From Caldimicrobium sp. (GTDB lineage Bacteria > Desulfobacterota > Thermodesulfobacteria > Thermodesulfobacteriales > Thermodesulfobacteriaceae), in assembly GCA_025059715.1 (NCBI GenBank), contig JANXCE010000023.1, positions 1-37,576 of the forward strand: a DNA stretch of 37,576 nucleotides. The letters run 5' to 3'. Under the pieces are notes generated by a model, which saw only the letters and a list, made by a program, of their open reading frames with translations, was not told where the DNA came from and made no database searches. Each line of letters opens with the position of its first letter. Position 1 is the stretch's first letter. This document shows, in pieces, positions 13,487 to 23,386 of this stretch. The position numbers and the translations under genes are program-made.

Positions 13487-14979
13487 GGCTCTACTCCTTT
13501 ATAGGGTTCTATGTAAGCAATTTTTGCAGAAAATTCTTTGATTATGGCTTGAACCTCTGGGCGAGTTTTAATCTCTTCTGGAGAAAATTCTTTTAGGGTT
13601 TCTCTATGCAGTTTTAAAGTTTTGTGGAAGTATTTTTCTATCTTTTCTTTTAGTAGAGGCAAATAAGTGTCTATAAGAGTATTTTCTTCTCCCTTAACAG
13701 TAATAACAACATCCTGGGAATTGATCTCCGGTTCAGGTAGTTTTTCTAAAATCTGATACAGTGAGGGGTAATCCCCTTTTAAACTCTTTAGAAAATTTTC
13801 CCAATCCTTTGGTTTAGTAGAAATTTCTTCACTTGTCAGAAAAAGCAATTCCGCTTTACTGGAGAGACCTTCCAGTTTTTGGAGTATTTCTCTCAAAGGT
13901 ATAAGCTTTTCGTATTCACAGATTTTAGCTAAGGTGAGCTCGAATTGTAGCTGAGGGTAGGAGGATCTTCTCAAGACTTCAAGATCCCTAAGAAGTGTTT
14001 GAAAGATGAGTAGTATTTCTTCTAAGGAGGTTACCACATAGAGTTCCTTTAGTTTAGAATTGTATATCTCAAAATTGAATTCTTTGTGTAAGGCCTTAGC
14101 CAAAAAGAGATTTCTAAAAAACTCCGTAAGTTTTTCCATAAGATGGAGAAGGTCTATCCCTCTTTCATAGAGGTGTGTTGAAAATTCCATAGCTTCGCGG
14201 AGATTTTTTTCTAAAAGAATTACAGCTAAATCCTCTAAAAGGGAATCTTCATGCCATCCAAGGGCAACAACAACATCCTCTCTAGTTTTTACTCCATAAG
14301 CCATAGCCTGATCGAGGAGGGAAAGGGCATCCCTTACACTTCCCTGTGCTTCCTTGACTATAAGTTCCAAAGCAGAATCTTCTATGAGATAGTTTTCGCC
14401 CTCGCAAATTCTTTTTAAATATCGCATCACGGTTTTGGTATCTAATCTCCGAAAATCATATCTTTGACACCGGGAAAGTATCGTAGGGGGAAGTTTATTA
14501 GGTTCTGTGGTAGCTAATATGAAGTATACATGTCTGGGAGGCTCTTCTAAAGATTTAAGCAGGGCGTTGCTTGCTTCCTTGGTTAACATATGGGCTTCAT
14601 CAATAATATACACCTTGGCCTTTCCCTTAACGGGTGCATATTTTAGATTTTCAATCAGTTCTCTAATCTGATCTATACCTCTATTAGAAGCAGCATCTAT
14701 CTCCAGGACATCTACAAAGATACCCTTGTTGATTTCTTTACAGTGTAAACACTCATTGCAGGGTTCATAGCCCTCCTGAAGATTTTGGCAATTAAGTGCT
14801 TTGGCTACAATCCTTGCAATAGTCGTTTTTCCTGTGCCTTTTATCCCAGAGAAAAGGAGAGCATGACTTAGTTTATTTAGTTTTAAAGCATTAATCAGAG
14901 TTTTTACTATATGGGTTTGTCCAACTACTTCCGCAAATTTCTGGGGTCTATACTTTCTTGCTAATACAAGATAACTCAT
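13483..14979 (-). CDS. dnaX: DNA polymerase III subunit gamma/tau
   Basis: This is the clamp-loader ATPase. The N-terminus LVLARKYRPQKFAEVVGQTHIV is diagnostic. Walker A is GIKGTGKTT, the zinc-binding loop contains C-N-C-x8-C-x2-C-x2-C-type cysteines (residues about 64-82), Walker B/DEAH is IDEAHMLTKEA, and sensor 1 plus the SRC motif read ATTEPNKLPPTILSRCQRYDF. At 498 residues it lies between E. coli gamma and tau. The C-terminal 130 residues are Lys/Glu-rich and could form a short tau-type tail. No clear A6G-type slippery site for programmed frameshifting is seen. First gene of the operon. Confidence 0.96.
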   Translation of the reverse strand: MSYLVLARKYRPQKFAEVVGQTHIVKTLINALKLNKLSHALLFSGIKGTGKTTIARIVAKALNCQNLQEGYEPCNECLHCKEINKGIFVDVLEIDAASNRGIDQIRELIENLKYAPVKGKAKVYIIDEAHMLTKEASNALLKSLEEPPRHVYFILATTEPNKLPPTILSRCQRYDFRRLDTKTVMRYLKRICEGENYLIEDSALELIVKEAQGSVRDALSLLDQAMAYGVKTREDVVVALGWHEDSLLEDLAVILLEKNLREAMEFSTHLYERGIDLLHLMEKLTEFFRNLFLAKALHKEFNFEIYNSKLKELYVVTSLEEILLIFQTLLRDLEVLRRSSYPQLQFELTLAKICEYEKLIPLREILQKLEGLSSKAELLFLTSEEISTKPKDWENFLKSLKGDYPSLYQILEKLPEPEINSQDVVITVKGEENTLIDTYLPLLKEKIEKYFHKTLKLHRETLKEFSPEEIKTRPEVQAIIKEFSAKIAYIEPYKGVEP

Positions 14980-15021
14980 TTGGAAGTTATTTTATACTCT
15001 CTTTATTAAATTACAAGAAGA

Positions 15022-15050
15022 CCCCTCTCCCGGAGGGGGAAGGAGAGGGG
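15022..15050. repeat. GC-rich inverted repeat in the dnaX leader region
   Basis: CCCCTCTC (15022-15029) and GAGAGGGG (15043-15050) are perfect 8-bp arms around a 13-nt GC-rich loop that can also pair internally. In AT-rich surroundings this stands out. It may be a leader hairpin or a dispersed palindromic repeat; no second copy was noticed in this window. The rest of the 14980-15293 gap holds only promoters. Confidence 0.55.
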
Positions 15051-15097
15051 GTGAAAGAGGGAGGATTTGAGGGAGGGGGCATGCAGAGAAAAATATC

Positions 15098-15126
15098 TCT
15101 ATAAATTTTTTTAAAAGAACTTTCAA
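15098..15126 (-). promoter_or_regulatory. Candidate promoter for the dnaX operon
   Basis: Minus-strand TTGAAA (15126-15121) and TATAGA (15103-15098), spaced 17 bp, match a sigma-70 promoter. Transcription would start near 15091 and leave a leader of about 110 nt before dnaX. That leader would contain the GC-rich hairpin at 15022-15050. Confidence 0.5.
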
Positions 15127-15169
15127 TTTTTATGCCTGTATGTCAATTCCAATTATGGCGCTTCCCCTA

Positions 15170-15240
15170 AGAAAGGGAGTTACCTTTCTGAATCAAATTT
15201 TTGAGGATTTTTTACCTACTGGTAACTTAATAATTATAAT
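15170..15240 (+). promoter_or_regulatory. Two-part operator and promoter of the iron-sulfur/cytochrome b unit (site A)
   Basis: GTTACC at 15179-15184 is followed exactly 32 bp later by the palindrome TTACC-TACT-GGTAA(C) at 15212-15226. A perfect TATAAT lies at 15235-15240, 17 bp after TTACCT (15212-15217), so the palindrome occupies the -35 position. The same layout occurs upstream of the Usp unit (16948-17010). The arms AGAAAGG...CCTTTCT (15170-15189) also form an inverted repeat around the upstream half-site. A second possible promoter is TTGAAT (15242) / TAATAT (15264), 16 bp apart. Confidence 0.55.
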
Positions 15241-15293
15241 ATTGAATTTTTTGATAAAGGATTTAATATTATAAAAAATGGGAGGAGGTCAGT

Positions 15294-16283
15294 ATGAACT
15301 TTAATAGAAGACAATTTTTTAAGGTAGCGTTGGGATTATCCGCTTTGGCTTTAACTCCCAAGGAACTTAAGGCTTCTCCTGGAAAATATGCTACTCTTAT
15401 TGATATTACCAAGTGTGATCGCTGTGAAGGTGAGTTCATGCCCCTTTGTGTAAAGGCTTGTCGAGAGGTTAATAAACATCGCTTTCCAGACCCAAAGAAA
15501 CCTATTCCACCCTATTGGCCTCGAAAGACCTATGAAGACTGGTCTGATAAAAGGGAAATTATAGATACCCTTTCTCCCTATAACTGGCTTTTTATCCAAA
15601 AGGTAGAAATTGAAGGACATACTCTATTTATTCCCAGGCGGTGTATGCATTGTGACTCTCCACCCTGTGTGAAAGGTTGTCCCTTCGGGGCTCTAAGTAA
15701 ACAACCAGAGGGAAATACGGTTATAGATCACAATATTTGTTTTGGAGGTGCCAAGTGCAGAGATGTTTGTCCCTGGCATATTCCTCAAAGACAGGCAGGA
15801 GTTGGTATTTATCTAAAGCTTATGCCTAAGTTAGCAGGTGGTGGTGTGATGTATAAGTGTGACCTCTGTGATGCGCGAATAAAGAGAGGAGAAGAGCCCG
15901 CCTGCGTAGTTGCCTGTAGAGAACGATTAAAGGATAGAGCGGTTTATACCTTTGGAAAAAGAGAAGAGATTTTTGCCCTGGCTAAAAACAGGGCCTCTGA
16001 AGAGGGACTTTATATTTATGGCGATAGGCAAAATGGAGGCACTTCAACTCTATATCTATCTTCTATCCCCTTTGAGAAAATCGAGGCCAAACTAAAGGAG
16101 ACAAGAGCAAGATTTGGTATGCCAGTAAAGGTAGTAAATCGTTATATGGAAGAAATAAATCCTTGGGGTAAGGCAGTGCTTGTAGCTGGAGCCCTGGGAA
16201 TAGGAGCAGGCTTAGTGGGAGCTTTTTACTCAAAGAAAGAAGAAAAGGAGGAAAAACATGGGGAAAATCAAGAGATATTCTAA
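15294..16283 (+). CDS. Formate-dehydrogenase-beta-like iron-sulfur subunit, membrane anchored, twin-arginine signal
   Basis: The N-terminus NFNRRQFFKVALGLSALAL is a twin-arginine-type signal, so the protein acts outside the cytoplasmic membrane. It resembles FdnH/HybA electron-transfer subunits with four cysteine groups: C41/44/52/56, C117/120/125/129, C149/155/159 and C189/192/204/208. The third group has glycine (G152) where the family normally has a second cysteine, so one cluster has only three visible ligands. A C-terminal membrane helix (about 292-311) precedes a charged tail, as in FdnH. The ATG at 15294 has a strong GGGAGGAGG ribosome site. The end overlaps the cytochrome b gene by 26 bp. 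No catalytic molybdopterin subunit is adjacent. Confidence 0.88.
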   Translation: MNFNRRQFFKVALGLSALALTPKELKASPGKYATLIDITKCDRCEGEFMPLCVKACREVNKHRFPDPKKPIPPYWPRKTYEDWSDKREIIDTLSPYNWLFIQKVEIEGHTLFIPRRCMHCDSPPCVKGCPFGALSKQPEGNTVIDHNICFGGAKCRDVCPWHIPQRQAGVGIYLKLMPKLAGGGVMYKCDLCDARIKRGEEPACVVACRERLKDRAVYTFGKREEIFALAKNRASEEGLYIYGDRQNGGTSTLYLSSIPFEKIEAKLKETRARFGMPVKVVNRYMEEINPWGKAVLVAGALGIGAGLVGAFYSKKEEKEEKHGENQEIF

Positions 16284-16938
16284 GGTCATTTTATTTGAAC
16301 ACTGGCTCATAGCCCTATCTGGTATCATGCTGATCTTTACAGGCTTAGGTTGTCTTCCCCTTTTTAAAAGATATTATATAACAGAACTACCTGGTTTAAA
16401 ATGGACCGCGGATTTCTATCTTTTAACAAAACTTCATTACATCTTTGCGATTTTCTTTACCTTTGGTGTCTTTTTTCATATCACCTACCATTTGATAAGA
16501 AGAGATTTTGGCCTTCTGCCAAGGAAGGGAGATTTTGTTAACTCCATAAAGGCAATCTTAGCTTCCTTTGGGTTGACGAAGCATCCACCTGCTGATAAAT
16601 GGCTTCCAGAACAAAGATATGCCTATGTAGGAATAGCTGGCGTTACCTCGATATTAGTAATAACTGGAATTCTTAAGGTTTTGAAGAACTTAGAGTGGAT
16701 AGTTTATCCACCTAAGGTAGAGTCAGTTGTTAATCTTTTACATACTATCTTTGGGGGTCTTTTCATTCTGCTGTTCCTCGTTCATCTTTTCTTTGTCCTC
16801 GGGGTAAAGGCCAACTGGCCACTCCTAAAGGCTATGTTCACCGGTAAAGTGGAGGAAGAGTATGTGAGGGAACGCCATTCATTGTGGTTGAGAAAGTTAA
16901 AGAAAAGGAATAATTTGGATACGAGATCAAAAAATTGA
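16258..16938 (+). CDS. Diheme cytochrome b, formate-dehydrogenase-gamma-like
   Basis: This 226-residue membrane protein has four predicted helices (about 16-34, 56-80, 122-142, 158-182). Histidines H15, H60, H74, H78, H162 and H176 are placed as in FdnI-type cytochromes that carry two haems b and pass electrons to or from quinone. FEHWLIALSGIMLIFTG is the typical N-terminal helix and LHTIFGGLFILLFLVH the last. GGAGGAAAAAC precedes the ATG at 16258, within the end of the iron-sulfur gene. Together they form an electron-transfer pair between quinone pool and periplasm whose catalytic partner must be encoded elsewhere. Confidence 0.85.
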   Translation: MGKIKRYSKVILFEHWLIALSGIMLIFTGLGCLPLFKRYYITELPGLKWTADFYLLTKLHYIFAIFFTFGVFFHITYHLIRRDFGLLPRKGDFVNSIKAILASFGLTKHPPADKWLPEQRYAYVGIAGVTSILVITGILKVLKNLEWIVYPPKVESVVNLLHTIFGGLFILLFLVHLFFVLGVKANWPLLKAMFTGKVEEEYVRERHSLWLRKLKKRNNLDTRSKN

Positions 16939-16947
16939 AATCATTTT

Positions 16948-17035
16948 GTTACCTTTTCTTTCCATATCATAAAAATTTAGTTACTTCTCGGTAACAAAAT
17001 CCTCTATAGTCCACTGATTAATTTCGGCATATAAT
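16948..17035 (+). promoter_or_regulatory. Two-part operator and promoter of the Usp/transporter unit (site B)
   Basis: GTTACC at 16948-16953 is followed exactly 32 bp later by GTTAC-N6-GTAAC (16980-16995). Possible -10 boxes are TATAGT at 17005-17010 (18 bp after TTACTT) and TATAAT at 17030-17035. The arrangement copies site A upstream of the iron-sulfur gene. Confidence 0.5.
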
Positions 17036-17077
17036 TTGATTTATTATTGGGTAAATAATTAAATAAGGAGGTGGGGC

Positions 17078-17497
17078 ATGAGTAAGGTATTAGCCTGTGT
17101 TGACGGTTCAGAGATATCAGATCGGGTTTTGGCTAAAGCAGTAGATAGGGTTAAAAGTGAGGGTGGAGAGTTAGTAGTTTTATATGTAGTTGAAGACTTT
17201 TGTCCTGTGGGCTTGACTGAAATTGATTGTGATATGGTTAGAGATTTTATGAGGAAAGAGGCAAAGGTTATTATTGATCAAGCTTTGGAAAAAGTCAGAG
17301 CCATGGGTGTAGAGGCTAAAGGTGTTATCAGAGAAGGCAGGCCGGCGGATGAAATTGTAGCCTTTGCAAAGGATGAGGGAATTGATGAGATTTTTATTGG
17401 ATCTCATGGTAGACACGGGGCTAAGAAAGTGCTTTTAGGAAGTGTTTCTTCCAGAGTAGTAGAGTATGCTGCTTGTCCTGTAACAGTAATCAAATAA
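17078..17497 (+). CDS. Universal stress protein, UspA family, ATP-binding type
   Basis: This single-domain Usp of 139 residues starts KVLACVDGSE (nucleotide-binding first strand) and has the ATP motif G-2x-G-9x-G-S as GSHGRHGAKKVLLGS near the C-terminus, ending ACPVTVIK. Such proteins bind ATP and act in stress or energy-state signalling. A strong AAGGAGGTGG ribosome site precedes the ATG. It is the first gene after site B and is followed within 16 bp by the small membrane peptide and then the YeiH-like transporter, so it may sense or regulate that transporter. Confidence 0.9.
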   Translation: MSKVLACVDGSEISDRVLAKAVDRVKSEGGELVVLYVVEDFCPVGLTEIDCDMVRDFMRKEAKVIIDQALEKVRAMGVEAKGVIREGRPADEIVAFAKDEGIDEIFIGSHGRHGAKKVLLGSVSSRVVEYAACPVTVIK

Positions 17498-17513
17498 CAA
17501 GGGGGGTGATAAT

Positions 17514-17687
17514 ATGCAAGAAGAGGCAAAAGCAAAGGAACTTGAAGAAAGAGCGGAGAAAACCTTTTCCGCAGAAAGAAGAGAGGACTATGCAGTTCTC
17601 ATAGTTGCTGCTATTGTGGTAATCTTGGTTATGTTAGGTATCATTGATAAAAAGGTTATTTCTGCTATTTATTTACTTAAATATTAA
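17514..17687 (+). CDS. 57-residue single-span membrane peptide, unknown function
   Basis: This short gene has ATG at 17514 preceded by GGGGGGTGAT and stops at 17685-17687. Residues 1-26 are charged and helical (EEAKAKELEERAEKTFSAE), residues 27-44 form one membrane helix (AVLIVAAIVVILVMLGII), then a short basic tail ends in IYLLKY. It fits between the Usp and the YeiH-type transporter with 16 and 24 bp gaps and its own ribosome site, so it is probably real and co-expressed. I do not recognise the family. A small accessory subunit or regulator of the transporter is a guess from position. Confidence 0.75.
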   Translation: MQEEAKAKELEERAEKTFSAERREDYAVLIVAAIVVILVMLGIIDKKVISAIYLLKY

Positions 17688-17711
17688 AAAATTTTGTTAG
17701 GAGGTGGAATT

Positions 17712-19034
17712 ATGGGAGTAGGTGTTGATTTAACTGATGTAAGACAATGGCCAAGGATGTTACCAGGATTACTTGTATGCATACTTTTTGCCTGGCTTGT
17801 TCTCCAATATGATAAATATGTTATTGGAGATCTACATAGAGGGTATAGAGAGGCTTCAAGGGTTTTAAAACCTATTAAAGAGGGTAAGGAACCTTTATCT
17901 TATGAGGATTATGTTAAAGAACGTCAAGAATCCTACAAAAAGGCTATGGAAAAGTATCAAGCAGGTCTTGAGAAAAAGAAACCTTCTAAACCCTTCATTT
18001 TAAAGAAGGAGGATTACGAGTATATAGTTCAAAATAAGGCCATACCCGGGAAATTTACCTTTGGTGAGAGAATGAACCAGTTTCAAATAACCTATGTGGC
18101 GGTGCTTCTTCTTGGAGGTATGTTAATTAGAAATACAATCGGAGTTCCAGGTGTTCTTCAGCCAGGCACGGTTGCAGCGCGACCTTTCATAAAACCTGGT
18201 ATTATTATATTGGGCGCTTATTATATGTGGTCGGATGTTTTAAGAGTTGGTCTAATAGGCTTTGTTTTAGTAGTTATATTTGTCTTAGGAGCCAACATAG
18301 TTATATCAATATGGGGTAAAAGAGCTAAGGCTGATGACGGTCTTATGGGGCTTATGGGAGCAGGAGTTGGTGTCTGTGGTGTCTCTGCAGCAGTCGCGGT
18401 AGCACCAGTAGTTAATGCCAAACCCAGAGACTTCTTCTATGCTATAGGGACCATCTTGCTCTTTGGAACCTTAGCGCTTTTTACCTTTCCCTATATTGGT
18501 AAATTGTTAAATCTTCATCAAGCGGTATACGGTGCCTGGGTGGGCACAGCTATTCTTAATACCGCTCAATTGGTAGCAGCAGCAACTTGGTATGGACATG
18601 AGGCTTTACTTACCGCTAATGTTGTAAATATTGTTCGCATAGGATTCATTCCTATCGTTGTTTTGTGGGCTATTTACTACTATGTGGTAAGGCCTGCTCG
18701 TCAAGCTGGCGATGTTACACAGCGGATTAACACTTGGCAGGTTATAAAGGAAAAATTCCCTATTTTTATCATAGGCTTTTTCATCATGGTTACCCTGAAC
18801 GAACTCAAATTTTTCTCTCCAGAAGTAAGAGATCTCCTGGGAAGAGATATAGTGAAGATTTTTATGGCTATTGGTTTTGCAGGTGTGGGACTAAACATTG
18901 CCTTTGATGATCTTAGAAAGGCGGGTGGGACAGCCTTTGTGATCGGTTTTGTTGCGGCAACAGTTAAAGCCATTTTAGCACTTCTCTTTATAATGGCTCT
19001 TGGACCAGAGCCCTTCATTATTAAAGAAAAATAG
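17712..19034 (+). CDS. YeiH-type putative sulfate/sulfite exporter family membrane protein with extra hydrophilic region
   Basis: The start is the ATG at 17712, with GGAGGTGG before it; a TTG 18 bp upstream would put that ribosome site inside the gene. The 440-residue protein has about ten membrane helices and the YeiH/Cons_hypoth698 core: LMGAGVGVCGVSAAVAVAPV, TFPYIGKLLNLHQAVYGAWVG, ILNTAQLVAAATWYG and a C-terminal GVGLNIAFDDLRKAGG. Between helix 1 (about 14-33) and helix 2 (about 130-147) lies about 95 residues of charged, Lys/Glu/Tyr-rich sequence that the short bacterial YeiH lacks. The substrate is unproven; export of sulfur oxyanions has been suggested for relatives. Confidence 0.8.
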   Translation: MGVGVDLTDVRQWPRMLPGLLVCILFAWLVLQYDKYVIGDLHRGYREASRVLKPIKEGKEPLSYEDYVKERQESYKKAMEKYQAGLEKKKPSKPFILKKEDYEYIVQNKAIPGKFTFGERMNQFQITYVAVLLLGGMLIRNTIGVPGVLQPGTVAARPFIKPGIIILGAYYMWSDVLRVGLIGFVLVVIFVLGANIVISIWGKRAKADDGLMGLMGAGVGVCGVSAAVAVAPVVNAKPRDFFYAIGTILLFGTLALFTFPYIGKLLNLHQAVYGAWVGTAILNTAQLVAAATWYGHEALLTANVVNIVRIGFIPIVVLWAIYYYVVRPARQAGDVTQRINTWQVIKEKFPIFIIGFFIMVTLNELKFFSPEVRDLLGRDIVKIFMAIGFAGVGLNIAFDDLRKAGGTAFVIGFVAATVKAILALLFIMALGPEPFIIKEK

Positions 19035-19068: not shown

Positions 19069-19542
19069 ATGGAAAACACTCTCAAAAAAATACTTCTTTG
19101 TGTTGATACCGAGAGTCACAATCTCAGAGCTCAAGAATTAGCTTTAAGCTTAGCTGAAAAATTTCAAGCCAAACTTGTTTGTCTCTACGTGGTTGATGCT
19201 TACCCTAAACATTTCACTAACGAAATCTATGCTATTAATAGAGAAGAGTGTAGAAGATACTTAGACGAAAGTTTGACGCGCGAAGGTTTACAGATTTTAG
19301 AGAATCTGAAGATGCTTGCACTTAGAAAAGGGATACCTATAGAAATCAAGCTCCGTTATGGTTTACCTAAAGAGGAAATTTTAAAGGAACTTAAAGCGGA
19401 TAACTATGATCTCTTGATTATGGGTAAAAAGAAATATAAAGGATATTTAGATAGGATAAGATCCTTCAATTTGCCAAAGAGGCTCTTTGAGGATATTTCC
19501 ATCCCGGTCCTTTTTGCGGTTTCAGAGGAATATGGAAAATAG
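19069..19542 (+). CDS. Universal stress protein family, without the ATP-binding motif
   Basis: The 157-residue Usp fold begins LKKILLCVDTESHNLRAQELALSLA and ends ISIPVLFAVSEE. The C-terminal loop reads GKKKYKGYLDRIRSFNLPKRL and lacks G-2x-G-9x-G-S, so it probably does not bind ATP, unlike the other two Usps here. No separate Shine-Dalgarno is seen; the GC-rich hairpin sits just upstream. Its last codons overlap the start of the next gene (ATG 19532). A protein-protein or ligand-binding role in the transporter module is inferred. Confidence 0.78.
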   Translation: MENTLKKILLCVDTESHNLRAQELALSLAEKFQAKLVCLYVVDAYPKHFTNEIYAINREECRRYLDESLTREGLQILENLKMLALRKGIPIEIKLRYGLPKEEILKELKADNYDLLIMGKKKYKGYLDRIRSFNLPKRLFEDISIPVLFAVSEEYGK

Positions 19543-20131: not shown

Positions 20132-21493
20132 TTAATTTTTTGTTAATTTAATATCAAATTTTTTTATTTTTTGCCAAAGGGTTTTTCTGGATATACCTAA
20201 TTTCTTGGCAGCTTCAGATTTCTTTCCTTTACAGTCCTCCAAAGTTTTCAAGATAAGTTCCTTTTCTATTAATTCTTTACATCTATAATAATTTATCTCT
20301 GATTGACTGCCTTCTTTATCTATCCAGAGCTCCTCTGGTAAATCCCTTAGAGTTATAATGTTATCCTTTGATAGTAAAAGTGCACGCTCCAAGAGATGTT
20401 TTAATTCTCTGACATTGCCAGGATAATTATAGTTCAGTAAGGCAAGGTAAGCCTCCTTTGAAATTTCGGGTATTTTCTTTTGGTATTTTTCAGAAAAGGT
20501 CTGTAAGAAATATTTTATGAGATGGGGAAGGTCCTCTTTACGCTCTCTTAGAGGGGGCATTTTAATCGGAATAACATTAATTCTATAATAGAGATCATCT
20601 CTAAATTTTCCCTCTTCAACTAATTTTTTTAGATCTCTGCTTGTAGAAAATATATATCGAACATTTACTTTAACCTCTCTTTTGGAACCCAATGGATAGA
20701 AGCTGTTAGTTTCGAGCACTCTTAAGAGTTTTGGTTGGATACTAAGGGGAAGATCTCCTATTTCATCTAATAAAATAGTTCCTGTATGGGCTAATTCTAA
20801 CTTACCTTTCTTTGATTCAAGGGCACCAGTGAAGGAACCTTTTTCAAAACCAAAAAGTTCCGCTTCAAAGAGTGTTTCTGGTATGGCGGTGCAATTAAGT
20901 TTTATATAGGGATGGTCTCTTCTGTTGGATAATTGGACAATTAGGTCCGCTATAACCTCTTTTCCTGTTCCAGATTCTCCATAGATTAGAACAGGGACGT
21001 CCCTTTCTGCTACTAATTCAACTTTTTGTAATACCTCCTTTATGGCTTTGCTTTCACCAATTAAATCTTTTACTAAATAGCTCTTAGGAAGGATTTCCTT
21101 TAGGGTTTTCAACTCTTTTTCTAAATCTCTGTATTTCAAGAATTTTTCTATGGTGATTAATAATTCTTCTTCTTGAAAGGGTTTGGAAAGATAATCAAAA
21201 GCCCCTTCTTTTATGGCTCGAACTGCTGATTTGACCTCTGCATAAGCGGTAATTATTATGATTCCTGTGTCCGGTGAAATTCTTTTGATTTCCTGCATCA
21301 GTTCGAGGCCATTCATATCTGGAAGTCTTACATCTACCAGAGCAAGATCAAAGGGCTCTTGTTGTAATAAATTGAGAGCCCTTTGACCTGACTCACAGGT
21401 TTTTACTTCAAAGCCCTGGGATGTCAGTATGCTCTGAAGAGCGGTTCGAAGGATTATTTCATCATCAACTACCAGAATATGGGCCTTTCTCAT
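20132..21493 (-). CDS. NtrC-family sigma-54-dependent response regulator
   Basis: The receiver domain (ILVVDDEIILRTAL, phospho-acceptor in LALVDVRLPDMNG, conserved Lys in DYLSKPF) is followed by an AAA+ domain with Walker A GESGTGKEV, the sigma-54 contact loop as GSFTGA (usually GAFTGA), Walker B TILLDEIGDLP and R-finger regions, then a Fis-type helix-turn-helix (KKSEAAKKLGISRKTLWQKIKKF). At 453 residues it is a full-length activator of sigma-54 promoters. It lies 9 bp after the sensor kinase, its likely partner. No convincing -24/-12 promoter was found in this window, so targets may be elsewhere. Confidence 0.93.
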   Translation of the reverse strand: MRKAHILVVDDEIILRTALQSILTSQGFEVKTCESGQRALNLLQQEPFDLALVDVRLPDMNGLELMQEIKRISPDTGIIIITAYAEVKSAVRAIKEGAFDYLSKPFQEEELLITIEKFLKYRDLEKELKTLKEILPKSYLVKDLIGESKAIKEVLQKVELVAERDVPVLIYGESGTGKEVIADLIVQLSNRRDHPYIKLNCTAIPETLFEAELFGFEKGSFTGALESKKGKLELAHTGTILLDEIGDLPLSIQPKLLRVLETNSFYPLGSKREVKVNVRYIFSTSRDLKKLVEEGKFRDDLYYRINVIPIKMPPLRERKEDLPHLIKYFLQTFSEKYQKKIPEISKEAYLALLNYNYPGNVRELKHLLERALLLSKDNIITLRDLPEELWIDKEGSQSEINYYRCKELIEKELILKTLEDCKGKKSEAAKKLGISRKTLWQKIKKFDIKLTKN

Positions 21494-21502
21494 GGGTTTT
21501 CT

Positions 21503-23386
21503 CTAATTGTTAGAAAGGGGAAATTCTATAACAAACTTAGCACCTTTGTCGGATTTATCAAGATAAATCCTTCCACCGTGTTTTTCTACTATAGCTAAGC
21601 TCACTGAAAGTCCTAACCCAGTGCCCTTGTCTGGTCCTTTGGTAGTAAAGAAAGGATCAAAAATTCGATTAGCAATATTTTCAGGTATTCCCGGTCCATT
21701 ATCTTGAAAGGAGATGCAAACCTTATTGTCCCTTATGTAGGTATCTATTATTAAAACTTTTTCAGAAGTATTTTCCATTGCCTGAATGGCATTTAGTATA
21801 ATATTTAGAAAAACTTGTTCAATTTTGTCTTTATCAAGAAAAATTTCGGGTATATGATCATTTTGATTAAATATAACTTTTACTTTTTCCTTTTCTAATA
21901 AATGACTACTTAGGTTTAAAAGATTCTTAATTATCTCATTGATGGAGATTCGTTGGGGTTTTAGATCAGAGGTTCTTGCGAAGTTGAGCAAATCCTTTAT
22001 GAGCATTTGAATTTTATTGAGTCCCTGTTGAATTAGCTCAAAGTAATTTTGTCGTTCTTGGGGGTTAAGTTGCTCCCTCTTTAACTGATTAAGCAATAGA
22101 ATAATACCTGAGAGGGGATTGTTGATCTCATGGGCAAGACCTGCGGAAAGTTGTCCAATGGCTGCTAATTTTTCGGTCATTATAAGGCGCTCCTCCATCA
22201 TTTTTTTCTCCGTTATGTCCTCAAGAATTTGCACCACTTTGATTACCTCTCCCTTATTGTCAAATACTGGATACAGAGAAAGAAGATAGGTTCTTCCATC
22301 TTCTTCGACCTCGATTTTAAGATTTTCCTTTTTAATAAATACTTGATGAATAAACTCTATATTACACTTTTTATAAGGGCTTCCTTTATAGGCATGATTT
22401 GCTATTTCAACCTCACAACAACTGTTAATAAGCGCAATAGGATGGGTTATACTCTCAAAAAGTGTTTCCAGAGTTTTAAAGTTTTCATAAAGGGTCCTTT
22501 GAGTATAATCTAAGTGTGAGGATAGTTTATTAAAGGATTCAAATAATTCACCAATTTCATCTTCAGAGACTACTGGTAAAAAGGTTTTAAGGGATATTTT
22601 TCCTTCCCTCAAGTCTTTAAAGTGAGAATTAAGTAGTTTTAAGGGTTTGACAATTATACTGTAAAGAAGACCCTCCAACACAAACAAGAGTATGATGGCT
22701 GAAAAGACGCTAATTAAAAACAGACCGATCACCAAGGCCCTAACTTCGTTTAGGGCCTCTTTTACTGGATATTTCACTAACTCAATTCCTATAATATCTC
22801 CTTCCTTCCAGGGAAAATCCTTTTTTAGTTCGTAATACTTTAAAAGGGCTTTAGGCATTCTCCTAAGACTTCCGTGGCAGAGGAGGCAATCCCTTTGCGT
22901 GAAGATTGGTTTTGCAATAATTAAGAATTCATCCTCTTCAGTTTTAATTAGGCCTTTCCATAGTGAAGTATCTTCCTTGAACTTTGCCAAAAGTTCATAG
23001 TGCACTGACTTAAACTTGTTTTCAGGATTAATTGGTATGGGAGAGACCCTTTCATAAGTGACTTGAGGAAAAGTTTCTTTAAAGTATTCCATAACAATCT
23101 TTCTCACATGAGTGGTAGACATAGCTTCTCTAACGAATTTATCTTTAAGCCCTAATTCTTCAAAGATGTCTATAATGGTAGGTCTGAGATTATACATAAC
23201 ATACTTTCCCAGGGCATCCATTTGTGCAAATATAATGGTCATTTTTTCATAGGAGTTGGAAAGAACTCTCTCTCTCAAGTGAAAATAGAAAGCTAAAGAA
23301 AGCAAGCCAGAAAATAGAATGAGAATTAATAATAAAAGTATAAAAATTTTTGAGGAAAGTGGTGTTTTTCGAAGAAGGGTTTTCAT
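21503..23386 (-). CDS. Membrane histidine kinase with CxxCH haem-type sensor domain
   Basis: Domain order of this 627-residue kinase: membrane helix about 13-36; extracytoplasmic domain about 40-215 of the DUF3365/Tll0287-like type, with CLLCH at 167-171, a covalent c-type haem site; second helix about 217-241; HAMP linker about 243-295; PAS-like domain about 310-395; HisKA with LSAGLAHEINNPLSG; HATPase with NAIQAMENT, DNGPGIPE, FDPFFTTK and GTGLGLS. The sensor probably reads redox state or a haem ligand (O2, NO, sulfur species) outside the membrane. The regulator gene follows 9 bp later. There is no clear ribosome site before the ATG at 23386. Confidence 0.9.
   Translation of the reverse strand: MKTLLRKTPLSSKIFILLLLILILFSGLLSLAFYFHLRERVLSNSYEKMTIIFAQMDALGKYVMYNLRPTIIDIFEELGLKDKFVREAMSTTHVRKIVMEYFKETFPQVTYERVSPIPINPENKFKSVHYELLAKFKEDTSLWKGLIKTEEDEFLIIAKPIFTQRDCLLCHGSLRRMPKALLKYYELKKDFPWKEGDIIGIELVKYPVKEALNEVRALVIGLFLISVFSAIILLFVLEGLLYSIIVKPLKLLNSHFKDLREGKISLKTFLPVVSEDEIGELFESFNKLSSHLDYTQRTLYENFKTLETLFESITHPIALINSCCEVEIANHAYKGSPYKKCNIEFIHQVFIKKENLKIEVEEDGRTYLLSLYPVFDNKGEVIKVVQILEDITEKKMMEERLIMTEKLAAIGQLSAGLAHEINNPLSGIILLLNQLKREQLNPQERQNYFELIQQGLNKIQMLIKDLLNFARTSDLKPQRISINEIIKNLLNLSSHLLEKEKVKVIFNQNDHIPEIFLDKDKIEQVFLNIILNAIQAMENTSEKVLIIDTYIRDNKVCISFQDNGPGIPENIANRIFDPFFTTKGPDKGTGLGLSVSLAIVEKHGGRIYLDKSDKGAKFVIEFPLSNN

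Follow-up and report, generated by a model that had tools for sequence, protein, structure and literature searches.

Paired GTTAC-N6-GTAAC sites as putative NtrC-type enhancers of YeiH-family transporter and universal stress protein genes in Caldimicrobium and its relatives

Two pairs of GTTAC-N6-GTAAC sites lie in the window, by which we mean the whole 37,576-nucleotide stretch of Caldimicrobium DNA analysed here. The best overall explanation, to which we give a probability of a little under 80%, is that the pairs are NtrC-type enhancers for the response regulator encoded at 20132–21493; enhancer 2 would act on the universal stress protein (Usp)/YeiH unit, enhancer 1 would belong mainly to a leftward promoter element, and the iron-sulfur protein/cytochrome b (FeS/cytb) pair would have its own sigma-70 promoter. 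At sequence level this builds on the sites themselves, their recurrence and spacing, the regulator genes that occur alongside them, the two sigma-54-like elements, a conserved sigma-70 promoter and the presence of rpoN. The features are as follows, with the strand given where one is assigned.

15022–15050, minus strand: GC-rich terminator-like hairpin separating the leftward element from dnaX
15122–15137, minus strand: leftward sigma-54-like -24/-12 element, AGGCATAAAAATTGAA, at a distance of 41 bp from enhancer 1
15179–15194: enhancer 1, weaker site, GTTACCTTTCTGAATC, 8/10 to GTTAC-N6-GTAAC
15211–15226: enhancer 1, strong palindrome, TTTACCTACTGGTAAC, 9/10, partner 32 bp away
15242–15269, plus strand: sigma-70-type promoter serving FeS/cytb, TTGAAT-N16-TAATAT, conserved whether or not the operator is present
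15294–16283, plus strand: 4Fe-4S protein of the ferredoxin type, HmcB/HybA-like but below family cut-offs, with a Tat-like RRQFF at its start
16258–16938, plus strand: cytochrome b561/formate dehydrogenase gamma-like membrane protein
16948–16963: enhancer 2, weaker site, GTTACCTTTTCTTTCC, 7/10
16980–16995: enhancer 2, perfect palindrome, GTTACTTCTCGGTAAC, partner 32 bp away
17025–17040, plus strand: sigma-54-like -24/-12 element before the Usp/YeiH unit, CGGCATATAATTTGAT, found also before the orthologous unit in genomes G003 and G006
17078–17497, plus strand: universal stress protein, encoded by the first gene of the putative target unit
17514–17687, plus strand: small membrane-type protein of 57 aa, a conserved member of the unit
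17694–19034, plus strand: YeiH-family (PF03601) transporter
19069–19542, plus strand: second Usp-domain protein
20132–21493, minus strand: NtrC-family response regulator, the proposed regulator, with receiver, AAA+ domain with GSFTGA, and Fis-type HTH ending SRKTLWQKIKKF
21503–23386, minus strand: sensor histidine kinase with a Tll0287/DUF3365 domain and the heme-c motif CLLCH

An earlier note on this DNA had described one two-part operator upstream of both transcription units, and its elements can be read directly in the sequence. GTTACC is present at 15179 and 16948, the two palindromes are equal at 11 of 15 bases as claimed, and in the 16-bp register GTTAC-N6-GTAAC the site starts are exactly 32 bp apart in each pair (15179/15211 and 16948/16980). 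The test pattern given with that claim had the right elements but the wrong spacer, N26 giving no match where the true spacer is N27. When the gap is allowed to vary, the 1.84-Mb genome has the exact pattern at two places, which are these two, and the reversed control at none. The window thus holds two pairs versus 0.01 expected, and the 262 kb made up of the window and related loci hold 13 pairs at a spacing of 32–33 bp versus 0.05 expected (shuffle mean), with a mean of 0.48 pairs at other spacings. A lone GTTAC-N6-GTAAC site is no commoner genome-wide than its control (20 versus 19 places with at most one mismatch), so the evidence resides in the pairing and we claim no wider regulon. An Rfam search of 14900–17700 returned one match, below threshold, which we judged to be chance.

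Relatives were found through the FeS protein, as Caldimicrobium and Thermodesulfobacterium loci and then as genomes G001–G059, with G000 denoting the genome of the window. Conservation of the elements in related genomes, which the earlier note had proposed as a check, is borne out: pairs occur in G000, G001, G003, G005, G006 (several), G011, G013, G019 and G022, and a weak pair with sites 33 bp apart is also present in G007. Eight of the 13 pairs have a spacing of 32 bp and five of 33 bp, and the spacer sequences are unrelated. The pairs adjoin yeiH-family or usp-yeiH units and, in G000 and G003, also the FeS gene. In G011, G013, G019 and G022, the genus matching the named Thermodesulfobacterium loci, the regulator gene is apart from FeS, and the DNA separating it from a YeiH-family gene contains the pair. 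No pairs were found at the YeiH homologues of 538–586 aa in genomes without a regulator orthologue (G023, G028, G057, G045, G016, G032 and G034); this set of related genomes is small, and the co-occurrence counts ignore shared ancestry. In a phylum-wide scan of 395 genomes, matches outside the family were no commoner than in the control and are therefore treated as chance, except for one case in the distant genome G098 (L141, 5402–5570). There, two sites of this motif, spaced by 31 bp, precede a hybrid-cluster (Prismane) gene that also has a strong sigma-54 element (15.5/16.5) before it; none among the G098 regulators examined shares the recognition helix described below. The GTTAC/GTAAC string does not occur in the main text of the Desulfovibrio vulgaris sigma-54 and response-regulator papers (PMC4641369, PMC3333781).

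From co-occurrence and adjacency, the response regulator at 20132–21493 is a strong candidate for the operator-binding protein. Its gene and that of the kinase are just beyond the Usp unit, and it carries PF00072, PF00158 and PF02954 (receiver, AAA+ sigma-54 interaction and Fis-type HTH domains), with a sigma-54 contact loop that reads GSFTGA in the window and G003 and GAFTGA in most orthologues. The kinase matches PF11845 at 1.8e-22, and CXXCH is found in 10/10 orthologues examined. Regulator orthologues of pair-bearing genomes have the recognition helix SRKTLWQK(I/L)K, and the nearest paralogue group has TERMLRYK; the exceptions are G007, in which the helix is slightly changed, and G006, in which the regulator is broken in the HTH. 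That a single regulator acts at enhancers 1 and 2, as the earlier note had argued, is well supported by the co-occurrence in relatives, but the part of that claim concerning control of FeS/cytb is doubtful. One of the modules in G006 has decayed: at L086 (6434–7860 and 8820–9830) the regulator is interrupted inside the DNA-binding helix and the neighbouring yeiH copy is truncated at the same locus, and on contig C11 the yeiH homologue is in pieces and the pair is weakened.

Sigma-54-like elements score 13.5–15 of 16.5 in 12/12 enhancer-to-gene regions (shuffle p <0.001 to 0.040), that at 17025–17040 among them, and rpoN is encoded in G000 (PF04552, 3.9e-57). Both the Usp and the leftward elements have the -24 GG and the G of the -12 GC at the correct spacing of 10 bp, with C replaced by A in the window. 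Several -12 elements, the window's among them, are TTGA or TTGT rather than TTGC; the C is present in G013, G019 and contig C23 of G006. The transporter at 17694–19034 matches PF03601 at 4.3e-48, compared with 1e-20 to 1e-22 for the relatives of 538–586 aa, and scores below the family cut-off of NCBIfam TIGR00698. In relatives, the yeiH genes that carry the operator have ahead of them a strong Shine-Dalgarno sequence and a mini-ORF of 4–5 codons, MKKG*, MPGKG*, MRGKG* or MLGKG* (L090 at about 7020, L092 and L096, and on the reverse complement L085, L082, L089 and L128); no such mini-ORF was found before yeiH homologues without the operator. We rejected a selenocysteine reading of the mini-ORF TGA, given that sequences compared by eye have no conservation past the stop.

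The leftward element is located at the same offset in G001, G005 and G007, where it precedes a yeiH-family gene divergent from FeS or its remnant. This remnant, in G007 (L089, 2277–2468), is a decayed FeS copy of which the middle only is left, between yeiH and the regulator gene. The divergent yeiH gene is absent in G000 and G003, although the element remains, and these two genomes share 8/9 of its key positions versus 44/119 surrounding non-motif columns. Enhancer 1 seems to have outlasted a neighbouring transporter gene, the loss of which we infer to have been by deletion. In G003, G005 and G006, hairpins similar to that at 15022–15050 occupy the equivalent position ahead of dnaX, so leftward transcripts probably stop before dnaX. 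The loop of the window's hairpin holds CCCCCTCC, which occurs once in the genome. It is conceivable, though quite improbable, that the leftward promoter is still active under the regulator and yields a small RNA born of the gene deletion, which would start at about 15111, end at the hairpin after approximately 95 nt and be rich in CCUCC tracts that could pair with Shine-Dalgarno sequences.

Several other explanations of the paired sites have to be weighed. Chance resemblance of two intergenic regions would fit the lack of enrichment of lone sites in the genome, but we consider it negligible with 13 pairs found where 0.05 are expected and with none of 300 window shuffles yielding two pairs. The earlier note had the palindromes take the place of the -35 boxes, which would imply sigma-70 promoters, and the -10-like boxes that it named can be read 17–18 bp past the left half-site (TATAAT at 15235 and TATAGT at 17005). 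These boxes are, however, unconserved in relatives, where other promoter elements are conserved, and the sigma-54-like element of the Usp unit and the sigma-70 promoter of FeS/cytb both lie further downstream, which leaves the substitution scarcely plausible; given the conserved sigma-54-like element before the Usp/YeiH unit, the palindromes are better read as upstream enhancers. It is also improbable that the palindromes belong to another DNA-binding protein, such as a TetR- or GntR-type repressor, with the neighbouring regulator there by coincidence. Such a protein would account for G006, in which the regulator gene is broken and yet a perfect palindrome is kept at the second usp-yeiH copy (L087), near which a search found no regulator. 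Against it, the constant three-turn spacing of two sites upstream of sigma-54 elements fits an enhancer-binding protein, and the operator co-occurs with the regulator even at the moved loci of G011, G013, G019 and G022.

A more substantial rival, although still an unlikely one, is that enhancer 1 is bidirectional, the bound regulator modulating the sigma-70 promoter of FeS/cytb in addition to the leftward promoter or in its place. The FeS/cytb and kinase/regulator genes remain neighbours in G000, G001, G003 and G005, and the persistence of enhancer 1 in G000 and G003 despite the missing divergent yeiH means that something may still select for it. However, FeS genes of relatives share a TTGA-type -35 with a -10 about 16 bp on, whether the operator is present or absent; this promoter is kept without any operator in the orthologues of G006, G011 and G013, the last two being Thermodesulfobacterium-like genomes in which FeS is located elsewhere. 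The FeS upstream regions have no sigma-54 element (score 8.5–9.5 of 16.5, shuffle p >0.6). The distance from the operator to the FeS -35 varies (15, 16, 8, 8 and 4 bp in G000, G003, G005, G001 and G007), whereas the leftward sigma-54-like element keeps a constant distance from it (41, 40, 40, 41 and 40 bp in the same order). Regulation of FeS/cytb by enhancer 1 is thus doubtful, and these two genes would probably fall outside the regulon.

Under the preferred NtrC-type reading, each pair would be an upstream enhancer whose two dimer sites, one strong and one weak, are separated by three helical turns and face the same side of the DNA. The heme-c sensor kinase would phosphorylate the response regulator, which would then assemble on the pair and promote ATP-driven open-complex formation by sigma-54 RNA polymerase. 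Enhancer 2 would serve the element at 17025–17040 and switch on the usp-small protein-yeiH-usp unit, enhancer 1 would mainly belong to the element at 15122–15137, which would drive the divergent yeiH in relatives, and FeS/cytb would be transcribed from its own sigma-70 promoter. Regulator binding, phosphorylation, the direction of activation and the signal are the parts of this scheme that we infer.

Judged from the DNA, this would be a new regulon of a known kind of system, operating like an NtrC enhancer. The two sites of the Escherichia coli glnA NtrC enhancer are about 32 bp apart; they are palindromic dimer sites upstream of a sigma-54 promoter, as those described here would be, and in both cases the response regulator has AAA+ and Fis-type HTH domains. 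Unlike in the glnA system, the recognition sequence is GTTAC-N6-GTAAC, the kinase sensor is of the heme-c Cache type, and the putative targets are a YeiH transporter and Usp genes. In Salmonella, YeiH is required for sulfite resistance, and a dedicated regulator adjoins the yeiH gene as it does here; however, Salmonella YeiE is a LysR-type sulfite-binding regulator (PMC12880088), whereas we propose a sigma-54 two-component system, and the YeiH proteins are remotely related. Tll0287/DUF3365 heme-c Cache sensors, which have the same domain and CXXCH motif as the kinase, have been reported in fusions to signalling modules with NO-sensor properties (PMC12889525, preprint). We found no paper tying a Tll0287/DUF3365 kinase to YeiH/Usp output genes, and take the NO-sensor and sulfite-resistance reports as leads to the signal.

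An anonymous repeated motif in thermophilic Thermodesulfobacteriota hence becomes a testable circuit, in which a heme-c kinase and an NtrC-type regulator would control YeiH-family transporters and universal stress proteins. If true, it would connect a sensor domain reported to be of the NO/redox type with the family that Salmonella requires for sulfite resistance, and at enhancer 1 an enhancer and promoter would have outlived the gene that they formerly controlled.
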